The notes under the pieces: model-generated
What the model saw: only the letters and a program-made list of their open reading frames with translations
Databases searched by the model: none
Told to the model about the DNA's origin: nothing
Assembly (NCBI GenBank): GCA_020445745.1
Contig: JAGRGB010000016.1
Coordinates: forward strand, 1-57,572
Source of the DNA: Rhodocyclaceae bacterium
GTDB taxonomy: Bacteria; Pseudomonadota; Gammaproteobacteria; Burkholderiales; Rhodocyclaceae
Reading direction: 5' to 3'
DNA: 57,572 nucleotides
Shown: one piece after another, positions 26,263 through 39,962 of the stretch
How the letters are laid out: each line of letters starts with the position of its first letter
Position numbering within the stretch: position 1 is the first letter of the stretch
Translations under genes and position numbers: made by a program

Positions 26263-27042
26263 ATGCAAACACACGCAAACGCGCATCCCACGGACATCTC
26301 GCGGGTCATTCACCGCAACACCCATCGCGTCGCCGGACAGCGCGACGGCTTGCCGAGCGTGCTGCTGGCGCGCTTCGCCAGCGACCTCTCGTGCCAGCTC
26401 GGGCTGTTGCTGTGCCAGCGCGGACACCGGGTCGTCGCGCAGTCGAGCATGGCCCAGTTCGCCGCCCTCGGCCTCGGCGGCTGCGAGGACGAGTGCTTCC
26501 CGTGCACCGAGATCAACTTTCCCTACCTGGGGCGCGACCGCGTCGAGGCCGTGCTGACCGAACGCGGACCGTTCGACGTTGTGGTGTTCGACATGATCGC
26601 GGCGAATCCGGGGCGATCCGGCCGCCGCGCCAGCGATGCCGGCGCGCCTCCGCCGACCGACCTGCCGGATGCGGCACTGCTGCGCGATGTCGCCGCCTGT
26701 GCCCGCCACCTGGCGCATCACGGCGGCGCGATCTGGCTGCTCGCCGGAACCGACGAACAGGCCGACGGGAACGCCACCCTCGGCGCCTGCAAGGCCTTTC
26801 TGCACGGCCTGGCCGGCGATCCGGAGTTCTCCCGCGTGTCGTTGAACGGCACCCGCATCGCACCGCTGCAGGGGCGGATCGAGGCGATCCACTTCGAGCG
26901 CCACGAATCGCTGGTGTCGCCCCGCCCGCTGCCCCGCGACGGGCGCGATCCGATGACGCTGGCGACGGCGCTGATCGAGCTGCTGGCGATCGAGCCGTCC
27001 CCGACCTGGCGCACCGACCCGCTGGCCGCCGCGCTCGCCTAG
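26263..27042 (+). CDS. Unassigned protein with degenerate SDR-like pattern, first gene of the PKS run
   Basis: The 259-residue protein starts at ATG 26263 with GGAGCAGG upstream. No family was firmly recognised. Its pattern suggests a Rossmann fold: DVVVFDMIAANP, then VAACARHLAHHGGAIWLLA, then NATLGACKAFLHGLA and VSLNGTRIAPLQ. These resemble the NAG, Ser-strand and Lys helix of short-chain dehydrogenases, but the catalytic Tyr and N-terminal GxxxGxG are missing. It may be a non-catalytic SDR relative or a coincidence of fold. It precedes the PKS by 93 bp on the same strand and may take part in the same pathway. Confidence 0.45.
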   Translation: MQTHANAHPTDISRVIHRNTHRVAGQRDGLPSVLLARFASDLSCQLGLLLCQRGHRVVAQSSMAQFAALGLGGCEDECFPCTEINFPYLGRDRVEAVLTERGPFDVVVFDMIAANPGRSGRRASDAGAPPPTDLPDAALLRDVAACARHLAHHGGAIWLLAGTDEQADGNATLGACKAFLHGLAGDPEFSRVSLNGTRIAPLQGRIEAIHFERHESLVSPRPLPRDGRDPMTLATALIELLAIEPSPTWRTDPLAAALA

Positions 27043-27135
27043 ACCGGCCCGCCCGGCCGTCCCGCACCACCACCCACGAACATTCAACGCGCCCGCGCCG
27101 AGCCGCGGGTGCCCTTCGCATTCGGGAGATCGACC

Positions 27136-30100
27136 GTGACCCAGACCGACAGCATGCCCAAATCGGGCGCCACCACCGCCCATCCGCTGGCCGTCGTCGG
27201 CATCGGCTGCCGCTTTCCGGGCGGTGTGGATGACCTCGATTCGTATTGGCGGCTGCTCAGCCAGGGCCGCGACGGCATCCGCGAAGTGCCGCGCGAGCGT
27301 TGGGACACGCGGGCCTTCTACAGCGAGGATGCCGACGCGCCGGGCAAGATGTACGTGCGCCACGGCGGCTTCATCGACCAGGACATCCGCAGCATCGACT
27401 GCGGCTTCTTCGGCATCTCGCCGCGCGAGGCGGCGAGCATCGATCCCCAGCAGCGCCTGCTGATGGAAGTCTGCTGGGAAGCGCTCGACGACGCCGGCAT
27501 CGCCCAGGACCGCCTGGCCGGCTCACGCACCGGCGTGTTCGTCGGCGCATTCACGCTCGACAACCTGCTGGCGCAAATGAATCCGGCCGACCGCGCCCGC
27601 ATCGGCGCACACTCGGCCACCGGCTCGACGGCGACCATCCTGTCCAACCGCCTGTCCTATTTCCTCGATCTGCGCGGGCCCAGCCTGTCGGTCGATACCG
27701 CCTGCTCGTCGTCGCTGGTGGCGCTGCACCTCGCCAGCCAGGCGATCGCCAGCGGCGATTGCGACATGGCGCTGGTCGGCGGCGTCAGCGTGATCTTCCG
27801 GCCGGAGTACATGATCGCCATGTGCAAGGGCCAGTTTCTCGCCCCGGACGGCAGGAGCAAGTCCTTCGACGCGCGCGCCGACGGCTACGGCCGCGGTGAA
27901 GGCGCGGGGATGGTGGTGGTGAAGCCGCTGGCCCGGGCGCTGGCGGACGGCGACCGCATCCATGCGGTGATCCGCGCCACCGGCTGCAACCAGGACGGCC
28001 GCAGCAACGGCATCACGGTCCCCAACCCGGACGCCCAGGAGGCCCTGATCGGCGCCGTGCTGCAGGCGGCGGGAGTCGACGGCCGGCAGATCCGCTACGT
28101 CGAGGCCCACGGCACCGGCACGCCGGTCGGCGATCCCCTCGAGGCGGGCGCGCTGGGCGCGGCGCTGGGCCACGGCCGGGCTGTAGACGAGCGCCTGGTG
28201 ATCGGCTCGGTGAAGGCCAACATCGGCCACCTGGAGGCCGCCGCCGGCATCGCCGGCCTGATCAAGCTGTGCGCGATCTACGCCCACCGGGCGATTCCCC
28301 CGATCGCCAACCTGCGCACGCCGAATCCGGCGATCCCGTTCGACGAGCTCGGCCTGCGCCTGGCGACCGCGCTGGAGCCGCTCGCGGCAGGGGACGAGCC
28401 GGTGCTGTGCGCGCTCAACTCCTTCGGCTACGGCGGCACCAACGCCCATGCGATCCTCGAAGGCCCGCCGCCTGCGGCGCCGGGGGACGACCTGCCGGCG
28501 CACGACGGGCCGATCGTGCTGCCGGTCTCCGCGCGCTCCGCGACGGCGCTGCAACAGCTGGTGGCGCGCTATCGCGAACGGCTCGCCGACCCGGCCACCC
28601 GGCCGGGCGCGCTGGCCGCCAGCGCCGGCGAGCGCCGCGCGCATCTGGCCTATCGTGCCGCCTTCGCCGGGCGCAGCCGCGACGACTTGCTGCAGGGCAT
28701 CGACGACTGGCTCGCCACGGCAGCCACCGATCCGCATGGGACCGCCGCGATCGACGCCCGCGCCGCTCGGCCGGTGTTCGTGTTCTCCGGCATGGGCCCG
28801 CAATGGTGGGCGATGGGCCGTCGCCTGCTCACGGCGGAGCCGGTCTATCGGGCGACCGTGGAACGGGTCGATGAACTCTTCCGCGAGCTGGCCGGCTGGT
28901 CGCTGCTCGAGGAGATGGGCCGCGACGAGGCGGACTCCCGCATGGGCCGCACCGAGATCGCCCAGCCCGCCAACTTCGCCGTGCAGGCGGGCCTGCTCGC
29001 GCTGCTGCGATCGCGCGGCATCGAACCGGCGGCGGTGGTCGGCCACAGCGTCGGCGAGGTGTCGTCGGCCTACGCGGCCGGCGTGCTGTCCCTCGCCGAT
29101 GCGGTGCGCGTCAGCTACCACCGCTCGCAGGTGCAGGCCCGCGCCGCAGGGCAGGGCGCGATGCTGGCGGTGGGGCTGACCGAACCGGAGGCGACGGCGC
29201 TGATCGCACCGTTCGCCGGGCGGGTCTGCATCGCCGCGGTCAATGCGCCGAAGGCGGTGACCCTGGCCGGCGACGGCGAGGCCCTCGACGAGATCGCCGC
29301 GCGCCTTGAGGTGAAGGCGATCTTCAACCGCCGGCTGCAGGTCGAGGTGGCCTATCACAGCCACTTCATGGATCCCCTCCGGCAGCCGCTGATCGACGCG
29401 CTGCAGGACATCGTGCCGCAGGCGCCGAGGGTGGAGATGTACTCGACCGTCAGCGGCGCCCGTGTGACCGACCTGCCATGCACCCCTGCCTACTGGGCCG
29501 CCAACGTGCGCGAGCCGGTGCGCTTCATGCAGGCGGTGAACGCGATGATCGCGGACGGCCACCGCGTGTTCCTGGAGGTCGGCCCGCATCCGGTGCTGGG
29601 CGGCTCGATGCGCGAGATCCTGGCGCGCGGACGCAGCCCGGGACATGTCGTGTCGACGCTGGAGCGCGGACAGGACGAGCCGCAGCTGCTGGCGCAGGCG
29701 ATCGCCCGGCTCTTCGCGCTGGGCTGCACGATCGACTGGACCCGCATGCACGAGCGGCCCGCGCCCTTCGTCGCGCTGCCGGCCTACCCGTGGCAGCGAG
29801 AGCGGATGTGGAACGACGACGGGCCGGGCGACACCGGCGCCGGCGAGCTGCCCGCCGCCGGCATGGCCGGCTGCCGCGTCGCGACCCCGGAAGCCGCCTG
29901 GGAGCGCACTGTGAACGAGCAGTACGTGCCCTACCTGCACGACCATGTCGTGCAGGGACTGACGCTGCTGCCCGGCGCCGCCTTCGTCGACGCGGCCCTC
30001 GGCATCCAGCGGGAAGTGGGCACCGATGCCCATCCGTTCTGCGTCGAGCAGGTCGCCTTCCGGAGCCCGCTGGTCTTTGAGCGCGCCGAGGAGCGCGTGC

Positions 30101-39257: not shown

Positions 39258-39278
39258 CGACCTGAAGGGAAGACGATC

Positions 39279-39962
39279 ATGTTGGTGACCCACAGTTCAG
39301 CACCGGCAAGCCCCCACGACAACCACGCCGGCCGCCCGCACGGCTCGCGCCACCACGGCCGCGAACAAGGACTGGTCGCGGAACTGCAGCACCTGTCCCG
39401 CCTGTCGGATGGCGCCGCCTGCCTCGAGACCCACCTCCGCGAGCTGAGCGGCAGCGCCGCCCGCGTGCTCGCCGCCGAGCGCTGCGTCATCGTGCTGCCC
39501 GCCGCGGACGCCGCGGACGCCGCGGCCCCGTTGCCGCCCGCCGCCGATGACGCGAGCGCCGCCGGCGGGCTGAGCACACCGATCCGCTTCGGCGGCCAGG
39601 CAATCGGCATCCTGCATGTCGGCGGCGCGCGCGGCAGGCCCGGGTTCGACGACGAGGATCGCGTGCTGCTCGAACTGGTCGCGGTCTACATCGGCAAGTC
39701 GCTGCAGACCCTCCAGCTGCAACGGATCCTGCAGTCCCGCTTCGCCCAGTCCAGTCTTGCCCGCGACACCACCGCGCCAGCCAATCCGCTGGCCGGCGGC
39801 GTGCCCGGATTCGCACGCATGGTGCGGATCCTCGCGCGCTCTTTCTACCGCGAACTGCGCAGGGCCGGCTTCGGCACGACCGAAGTCATCGGCGCGACCT
39901 CGCAGATCATCGACGAGCTGAGCGCCGACCTGAGGCGCGATGGCCGGCCCGGGCCGACCTGA
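39279..39962 (+). CDS. GAF-domain protein
   Basis: The 227-residue protein starts at ATG 39279 behind AAGGGAAG, 21 bp after the barrel gene. Residues about 30-150 fit a GAF domain: LVAELQHLSRLSD, AARVLAAERCVIVL, IRFGGQAIGILHVGG, FDDEDRVLLELVAVYIGKS. The region near residues 77-95 is an Ala/Asp low-complexity loop with 9-bp tandem repeats in the DNA (about 39508-39530). A C-terminal helical part (FARMVRILARSFYRELR) has no known output domain. It may sense a small ligand for the upstream operon; the target is unknown. Confidence 0.65.
   Translation: MLVTHSSAPASPHDNHAGRPHGSRHHGREQGLVAELQHLSRLSDGAACLETHLRELSGSAARVLAAERCVIVLPAADAADAAAPLPPAADDASAAGGLSTPIRFGGQAIGILHVGGARGRPGFDDEDRVLLELVAVYIGKSLQTLQLQRILQSRFAQSSLARDTTAPANPLAGGVPGFARMVRILARSFYRELRRAGFGTTEVIGATSQIIDELSADLRRDGRPGPT

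Follow-up and report, generated by a model that had tools for sequence, protein, structure and literature searches.

Sequence analysis of a 57,572-nucleotide stretch of a Rhodocyclaceae bacterium (GenBank assembly GCA_020445745.1, contig JAGRGB010000016.1; hereafter the window) revealed seven open reading frames (ORFs) on the forward strand at 26263–39962, with intergenic gaps of 93, 30, 7, −4, −4, and 21 bp. The coordinates and gaps of this co-directional run are exactly those claimed in an initial annotation of the window. The conserved unit consists of five of these genes (27136–39257), encoding in order a polyketide synthase (PKS), an alpha-oxoamine synthase (AOS), an MMPL-family transporter, a LolA_like carrier, and a putative outer-membrane barrel protein, and genes 1 and 7 were seen only in the genus of the window. 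We consider it reasonably probable that the five genes are devoted to the production and export of an amino-ketone lipid derived from the PKS. The features of the region are as follows.

26263–27042, + strand: gene 1, a 259-aa protein of unassigned family with no Pfam or NCBIfam match; outside the conserved core.
27136–33549, + strand: PKS, 2137 aa, single-module type I, with the Pfam order ketosynthase (KS)–acyltransferase (AT)–dehydratase (DH)–(degenerate enoyl reductase, ER)–ketoreductase (KR)–acyl carrier protein (ACP) and no thioesterase (TE).
31423–32415, + strand: degenerate ER region of the PKS (residues 1430–1760), judged by motifs and alignment score.
33580–34914, + strand: AOS, a class I/II pyridoxal phosphate (PLP) enzyme by Pfam and NCBIfam; serine palmitoyltransferase (SPT) is the best PDB match.
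34922–37252, + strand: MMPL-family resistance-nodulation-division (RND) transporter (PF03176; E value, 1.9e-41).
37249–38052, + strand: LolA_like carrier (PF17131; E value, 9.2e-60) with a Sec-like N-terminus; proposed to be periplasmic.
38049–39257, + strand: gene 6, putative outer-membrane barrel with a signal-like N-terminus; no Pfam family.
39279–39962, + strand: gene 7, a GAF-domain protein (GAF_2; E value, 1.7e-10); outside the conserved core.

According to Pfam analysis, the PKS contains KS, AT, DH, KR, and ACP domains and a weak match to the N-terminal part of an ER (ADH_N; E value, 5.7e-5). No TE was detected in the PKS, in agreement with the initial annotation, in which the protein ended in an ACP and was followed by a PLP enzyme. 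Residues 16–2090 are co-linear with mycocerosic acid synthase (MAS; 9d2y). The KS carries the motifs DTACS at 187, EAHGTGT at 323, and NIGH at 362; the DH carries HxxxGxxxxP at 937 and D...Q near 1101; the KR carries GGFGGFG at 1758 and Y...N at 1902, with no match to the strict Ser-Tyr KR pattern; and the ACP carries LGFDS at 2057. The motif GHSVGE at residue 636 is of the malonyl type. Since the PKS is a single module, it is probably iterative.

Both ER motifs are lost in the window PKS, LNFRDV being replaced by LDLQGM and AAGGVG by ARTALG. The ER alignment score was 156 vs 406–1763 in PKSs scored as ER-intact (score >350; the weakest of these, L225 at 406, has altered motifs), and the region gave only weak matches, to the CurK ER and a quinone oxidoreductase. 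A fully reducing MAS-like PKS was rejected once the ER motifs had been read. The same double loss was found in 15 PKSs, namely those of the window, a second genome of its genus (G001), genome G1132 of family f16, eight further f16 genomes, and four genomes of genus g401. Their KSs formed one clade of 15 rows (SH-aLRT 88) in a 72-row KS tree.

The best solved-structure match of the AOS was bacterial SPT (3a2b/8guh; E value, 7.8e-68), and none of the NCBIfam models listed for the enzyme reached its cut-off (bioF, 351.7 vs 426.45 bits; TIGR01822, 239.9 vs 493). In a tree of 115 AOS rows, it fell in a 40-row clade (SH-aLRT 100) apart from BioF/Kbl-like rows. The initial annotation had raised grouping with BioF or Kbl as one outcome that would speak against its reading; an assignment of the AOS to BioF/Kbl was ruled out by this position in a PKS-linked clade. 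In 39 of the 40 members, the AOS is either a neighbor of a PKS or part of the same protein, and the remaining one (L010) is an acyl-AMP-ligase–ACP–AOS fusion; each row thus has a partner that carries an ACP. The PLP Lys and Asp are invariant across all 115 rows. The PLP-stacking His is followed by Asn in 38 and by Asp in two members of the clade vs Ala in 69 of the other 75 rows, with Asn outside the clade in a single row, the second AOS of L061. Among 398 genomes sampled from the phylum, such an AOS occurs in 19, the window's own included, and all 19 places in the 18 others adjoin PKS sequence. KS-type matches were also seen in the stretches of two AOSs that do not belong to the clade, L061 (fused) and L057. 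Fusions of AOS with PKS or ligase-ACP were seen in several architectures (L061:2201-8014, L190:6305-11128, L006:1538-4915, L010:4797-8345, and L207:5832-13667).

A PKS+AOS pair that makes sphinganines, PfSgaAB, has been reported from Pseudomonas fluorescens MYb115, PfSgaB condensing L-serine with acyl-CoAs that served as surrogates, and this role of a PKS in bacterial sphingolipid synthesis was presented as a first (Peters et al., 2025; PMC12134224). The freeing of a polyketide chain by an AOS, for which the initial annotation cited fungal pathways, is thus an established reaction, and its precedent is not only fungal, a bacterial PKS+AOS sphingoid route being already published. Based on clade membership and the PfSgaB precedent, the most likely role of the window AOS is to transfer the chain from the ACP to an amino acid. 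As in PfSgaAB, a single-module type I PKS without TE is directly followed in the window by an SPT-related AOS, which belongs to the same clade as SgaB-type enzymes (L187, a Pseudomonas plasmid homologue, and others standing in for SgaB). The PKS, unlike the AOS, lies outside the SgaA-type KS clade (L187 and others standing in for SgaA), which comprises thirty rows with frames of 2456–2662 aa. The ER-intact homologues sampled mostly have frames of 2450–2770 aa, and the majority make up another KS clade with recognizable ER motifs; the 2137-aa window PKS lacks both motifs and would not be expected to have a working ER. Because of the separate KS clade and the lost ER motifs, we do not class the locus as SgaAB. 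PfSga also has a KDS-reductase-like short-chain dehydrogenase/reductase (SDR). By Pfam, neither an SDR nor a medium-chain dehydrogenase/reductase (MDR) gene was found among the called window genes scanned at 20913–57572, where the nearest reductase is an ApbA/PanE-type gene at 46704–47678 on the strand opposite to the cluster.

The main text of the PfSgaAB report makes no use of the term MMPL (PMC12134224), and no description of the five-gene locus, nor of any pairing of an oxoamine synthase with MMPL, was found in the open-licence literature searched. The question left by the initial annotation, whether the set is a known characterized cluster, therefore has a divided answer: the two-gene PKS+AOS chemistry is known, and the five-gene locus with its exporter is a new variant of the bacterial sphingolipid pathway reported in 2025. 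Three SgaAB-type PKS-AOS loci on plasmids of Pseudomonas, Caballeronia, and Paraburkholderia (L187, L188, and L191) lie beside capsule/polysaccharide-type genes. An LTA-synthase-like gene is present in all three, and an SDR is listed in L187 and L188. These polysaccharide-type neighbors suggest a surface-glycan lipid there.

The transport genes bear out the initial annotation in part, Pfam confirming the MMPL and LolA_like proteins, while the barrel stays a prediction from its signal-like N-terminus and the C-terminal residues of its family. The MMPL protein, which gave weak PDB matches to MmpL4 and HpnN, is proposed to act as an inner-membrane lipid extractor. The LolA_like protein matched the PDB entry 3bk5 (E value, 5.3e-81); LolA-type carriers handle membrane-bound lipoprotein or lipid cargo. 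Gene 6 is a putative outer-membrane barrel, and among 44 distinct, uncut C-termini of its family, the last residue is F in 43 and Y in one. A hydrophobic-alternation test for a barrel was weak, 40 of 500 shuffles reaching the window value and the family mean z being 1.58 (44 sequences; lowest, 0.05).

Barrel homologues were found in 131 of the 369 sampled genomes of the class (E value ≤0.001). Of the 30 loci kept, the window's own included, 27 have LolA_like next to the barrel. Another 20 wider stretches were selected because they contain a homologue of the barrel or of LolA; MMPL, LolA, and barrel genes are all present in 17 of them, and PKS or AOS genes were found in none of the 20. A TetR gene lies ahead of the stand-alone trio in all four regions tested. 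The adjacent MMPL–LolA_like–barrel order of the window is the same homologous trio; the stand-alone Gammaproteobacteria set differs from the window in lacking PKS and AOS in the stretches read and in the TetR gene of the four regions tested. In trees, the MMPLs of the clusters group together and apart from 17 others (SH-aLRT 99), as do the cluster LolAs from 19 others (SH-aLRT 91), with L061 counted as one of the others. MMPL–LolA–barrel is a widespread stand-alone module that has been recruited to PKS-AOS here. The window genome itself has a second such trio (L148, contig C160 of G000), which stands behind TetR and acyl-CoA-dehydrogenase-like genes with no PKS or AOS in the stretch.

Conservation of the locus was examined across genomes. 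G001 has all seven genes in the same order at 62–89% identity. The window genes called at 14880–26110 and from 40040 on have no counterpart in the 40 kb of G001 read, where a patatin gene lies upstream of the cluster and a TIR-WD40 gene lies downstream of it. The order is thus kept amid different immediate neighbors, which argues for a cluster beyond chance. The outer window genes at 5160–6326 and 12627–13943 do match G001, at least 3.6 kb past gene 1 there, so the wider genomic place of the cluster is partly common to both genomes. An AOS with an E value ≤1e-80 was present in eight of 150 sampled genomes of relatives, the window's own counted; in the six positive relatives outside the genus, the stretches read contain PKS and AOS and none of the three exporter genes.

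Beyond the window and G001, AOS-MMPL-LolA-barrel was found in 11 genomes, 10 of them with a PKS. The complete PKS-AOS-MMPL-LolA-barrel set is present in G1132 of family f16, where a flavoprotein gene stands between PKS and AOS (L248), and related loci occur in ten more f16 genomes. In L302, the PKS, upstream of AOS-MMPL-LolA-barrel, runs off the contig. Overall, 13 loci from two families keep the four genes in one order and on a single strand, and 12 of these have the PKS upstream. The initial annotation had proposed one synthesis-and-export system of seven genes, and this conservation upholds it from PKS to barrel, leaving genes 1 and 7 outside the core. As for its concern that neighboring genomes might carry the genes apart, both situations occur: they stand together in these 13 loci, and PKS+AOS without the exporter, as well as exporter stretches without PKS or AOS, are found as described above.

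The ammonia monooxygenase family PF02461, which also covers particulate methane monooxygenase, was detected in five of five f16 genomes tested, with part-length pieces only in G1239, and was not found in G000 (the window genome), G001, or G811. Family f16 is likely to consist of ammonia oxidizers, since the order to which it belongs also includes genomes that fall with Caballeronia and Paraburkholderia in the AOS tree. An FMO-like gene family lies ahead of the PKS in four f16 loci, and G1132 has an FMO-like piece (one family member tested by Pfam). A phosphopantetheinyl transferase (PPTase) gene follows the barrel in L303, and L304 has a gene of the same family (one member tested by Pfam). These genes fit amine tailoring and ACP activation. 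The flavoprotein of G1132 (L248:8497-10101, − strand) is carotenoid isomerase/desaturase-like (TIGR02730, 133.5 bits vs a cut-off of 586.9), which fits a polyene product.

To relate ER state to export genes, 81 AOS loci, chosen by similarity of their AOS to that of the window, were read. A LolA-like gene was present in the stretch in 15 of 15 ER-degenerate loci vs 0 of 54 ER-intact ones. None of the ER-intact loci has LolA, MMPL, or barrel, at least 3.5 kb of downstream sequence being available in 50 of the 54, whereas the window has all three. The other 12 loci stand outside these counts: nine are without a long PKS frame, among them L296 and L302, in which MMPL, LolA, and barrel are present, and in three the PKS is short or fused and has no ER region (L061, which has MMPL and LolA; L190, which has MMPL; and L006, which has neither). 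Eleven of the ER-degenerate loci have the MMPL trio, and the remaining four, all of genus g401, have a LolC/E-like permease with PF17131 in place of MMPL. The g401 order is PKS-AOS-reductase-ATPase-permease-LolA in three loci and is rearranged in G1317; a LolD-like ATPase was called in three of the four, and the LolD and LolC/E NCBIfam scores were under cut-off. A 432-aa gene after LolA in these ABC-type loci was considered as a homologue of the window barrel, found no support (hhalign probability, 0.2%), and is not called a barrel here.

Similar pairings were seen elsewhere. A Magnetococcales contig (L061) encodes a fused ligase-ACP-KS-DH-ACP-AOS followed by GNAT, MMPL, and LolA_like genes and then the contig end, its AOS sitting in another part of the AOS tree than the window clade. 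A Streptomyces plasmid carries a KS-AT-ACP-AOS fusion beside a divergent MMPL gene. From these two sets and the ABC variant of g401, it follows that ACP-AOS chemistry has probably been paired with such exporters more than once.

Several other characterized systems resemble parts of the locus. The window PKS shares the co-linear KS-AT-DH-ER-KR-ACP order of MAS/Pks2 and scores 934 against the NCBIfam Pks2 cut-off of 2400. Lipids of the MAS/Pks2 type are exported by MmpL, and the ERs of these synthases are working; these systems are not known to include an AOS, LolA, or barrel. RND proteins also serve membrane lipids in the HpnN (hopanoid) and BstABC (sterol; PMC10942540) systems, of which the RND part alone was compared; the HpnN and BstA models match the window MMPL weakly, far under their cut-offs (103.7 vs 751.85 and 25.5 vs 1400 bits, respectively). 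The closest functional parallel is the aryl polyene (APE) cluster, for which delivery of a polyene lipid to the outer membrane by ApeM, ApeL, and ApeN has been proposed (PMC8253772). There, too, an RND transporter and a LolA-like carrier stand beside polyketide-type genes, the likeness being one of protein kind. APE differs in having separate KS, DH, KR, and ACP proteins, an acyl-ACP synthetase, a thioesterase, and the LolB-like ApeN, and its gene table contains neither a type I PKS nor an AOS (PMC8253772). Separate KS/KR/DH/ACP proteins, an acyl-ACP synthetase, and a thioesterase were not found among the window genes scanned.

From the gene content, domain state, gene order, conservation, and clade membership of AOS and KS observed here, we infer the following route, in which iteration, chain state, amino acid, transport direction, and final location are predictions. 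Iterating on its own ACP with KS, AT, DH, and KR, the PKS would most likely build a chain that keeps its double bonds, because the ER motifs are lost; the chain would be a polyene unless reduced by another enzyme. In a PLP-dependent decarboxylative condensation, the AOS would then join the chain to an amino acid, most likely serine or alanine, and so free it from the ACP as a sphingoid-like 2-amino-3-keto lipid. The MMPL protein may extract this lipid from the inner membrane, the LolA-like protein may ferry it across the periplasm, and the barrel protein may take it up at the outer membrane. The product is therefore likely, judging from the encoded domains, to be an unsaturated, perhaps polyene, amino-ketone lipid. 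With regard to the sphingoid-like amino lipid of the outer membrane suggested in the initial annotation, the AOS clade supports the amino-lipid chemistry; the degenerate ER makes a saturated base not the simplest product, and the outer-membrane placement is a prediction.

Other explanations of the locus were weighed against this route. An SgaAB-type sphinganine pathway, with a saturated long-chain base, an added exporter, and another reductase compensating for the ER deficit, could account for the 44–56% identity (approximately) between the window AOS and those of ER-intact loci, and a separate MDR-type reductase does follow the AOS in genus g401. We hold it to be unlikely, given that the window PKS lies outside the SgaA-type KS clade, that the ER motifs are lost in 15 of 15 full-frame PKSs of LolA-bearing loci, and that no SDR or MDR gene was detected in the scanned part of the window. 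Rather unlikely, though somewhat less so, is a diffusible secreted amino-polyketide (a signal or an antibiotic) for which MMPL–LolA–barrel would be an efflux path and not a membrane-lipid route. LolA-type cargo, being membrane-bound, speaks against such a product, as does the proposed outer-membrane destination of the APE lipid; in its favor, the solved MmpL4 and MmpL5 entries bear siderophore-exporter titles, and vitroprocines are amino-polyketides for which PLP-dependent release has been proposed (PMC4523872).

The trio might also be a module for hydrophobic-compound uptake or outer-membrane maintenance, its adjacency to PKS-AOS being incidental. It does stand alone in many Gammaproteobacteria, with TetR ahead of it in the four regions tested, and in Thalassolituus an MMPL-LolA protein and a neighboring porin are reported to be upregulated on a long-chain alkane (PMC6304351), a parallel by description. 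The order kept in 13 loci of two families, the absence of the trio from all 54 ER-intact loci, and the separate clade of the cluster MMPLs make this quite improbable. Still more so, to the point of being hardly credible, is a BioF/Kbl-type AOS acting on small CoA thioesters with the PKS product released otherwise: bioF is the top NCBIfam match, albeit under its cut-off, but the AOS sits in the PKS-linked clade, Asn or Asp follows the PLP-stacking His in 40 of 40 clade rows vs the Ala typical of the others, and the PKS offers no TE.

A number of observations weigh against a dedicated lipid synthesis-and-export locus. As to the barrel, a convincing Pfam match was found for none of 15 family members (two single-member matches had E values of 0.03–0.05), a solved-structure search with the family profile returned two chance-level matches only, and a single-sequence AlphaFold2 model was uninformative (pLDDT 32). 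The MMPL-type rows fail to group as a single clade in the AOS and barrel trees (2 changes in each), and the MMPL-type clade of the KS tree has a support of only 34. The association of ER loss with exporters represents one or a few tree events rather than 15 independent ones and does not amount to a test of significance. Four of the six sampled genomes of the window's genus are without such an AOS at an E value of 1e-80, one of the four being only 80% complete, and G1239 (L296) has AOS-MMPL-LolA-barrel with no PKS within the 5.3 kb up to the contig end. The precedent enzyme PfSgaB accepts acyl-CoA, and ACP dependence is presumed for the AOS members. Lastly, the loss of the ER is deduced from its motifs, and the reduction could be supplied in trans by a reductase encoded elsewhere.

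A broader hypothesis can be put forward tentatively, as possible but not favored: an undescribed class of envelope lipids, polyene amino-ketones (unsaturated sphingoid-like bases), which an iterative PKS lacking an ER would build together with an ACP-dependent AOS and which a dedicated MMPL–LolA–barrel line would carry to the outer membrane in part of the ammonia-oxidizing bacteria, with a LolCDE-like exporter in a related lineage and a similar set assembled separately in Magnetococcales. The locus joins PKS-derived sphingoid-type chemistry to a complete candidate export line, and thereby makes testable in one place both the cargo of Gram-negative MMPL-LolA-type modules and the idea that the products of PKS-AOS pairs are lipids of the cell surface. 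As the locus is found in likely ammonia oxidizers, a group important in the nitrogen cycle, it would provide that group with a surface trait or a lipid marker.

Among the loci scanned, gene 1 has a homologue in G001 alone (63–65% identity), none being found in the others, f16 included. Its AlphaFold2 model (pLDDT 39.5) shows only a pattern of alternating helices and strands. By eye, the protein appeared SDR-like, and an assignment as a KDS reductase/SDR was rejected (hhalign probability of 0.3% against two SDRs of SgaAB-type loci; a single chance-level match in a PDB search). Gene 7 was likewise seen only in the window genome and G001.

Upstream of the cluster, 7452–26110 contains defense/signaling-like genes, including SLOG cluster 2, TIR_2, and DUF4062 genes, a 1443-aa nSTAND1 NTPase, and RecQ-like and UvrD-like helicases. 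None of them is matched within the 40 kb read from G001, and the TIR-WD40 gene of G001 lies on the opposite side of the cluster. Downstream, the − strand encodes a 1920-aa protein at 51125–56887 with matches to DUF7379, CHAT, TPR-S, and alpha/beta-hydrolase-type domains, and, at 43778–46534, a biopterin-dependent aromatic amino acid hydroxylase close to an HPPD-like dioxygenase.

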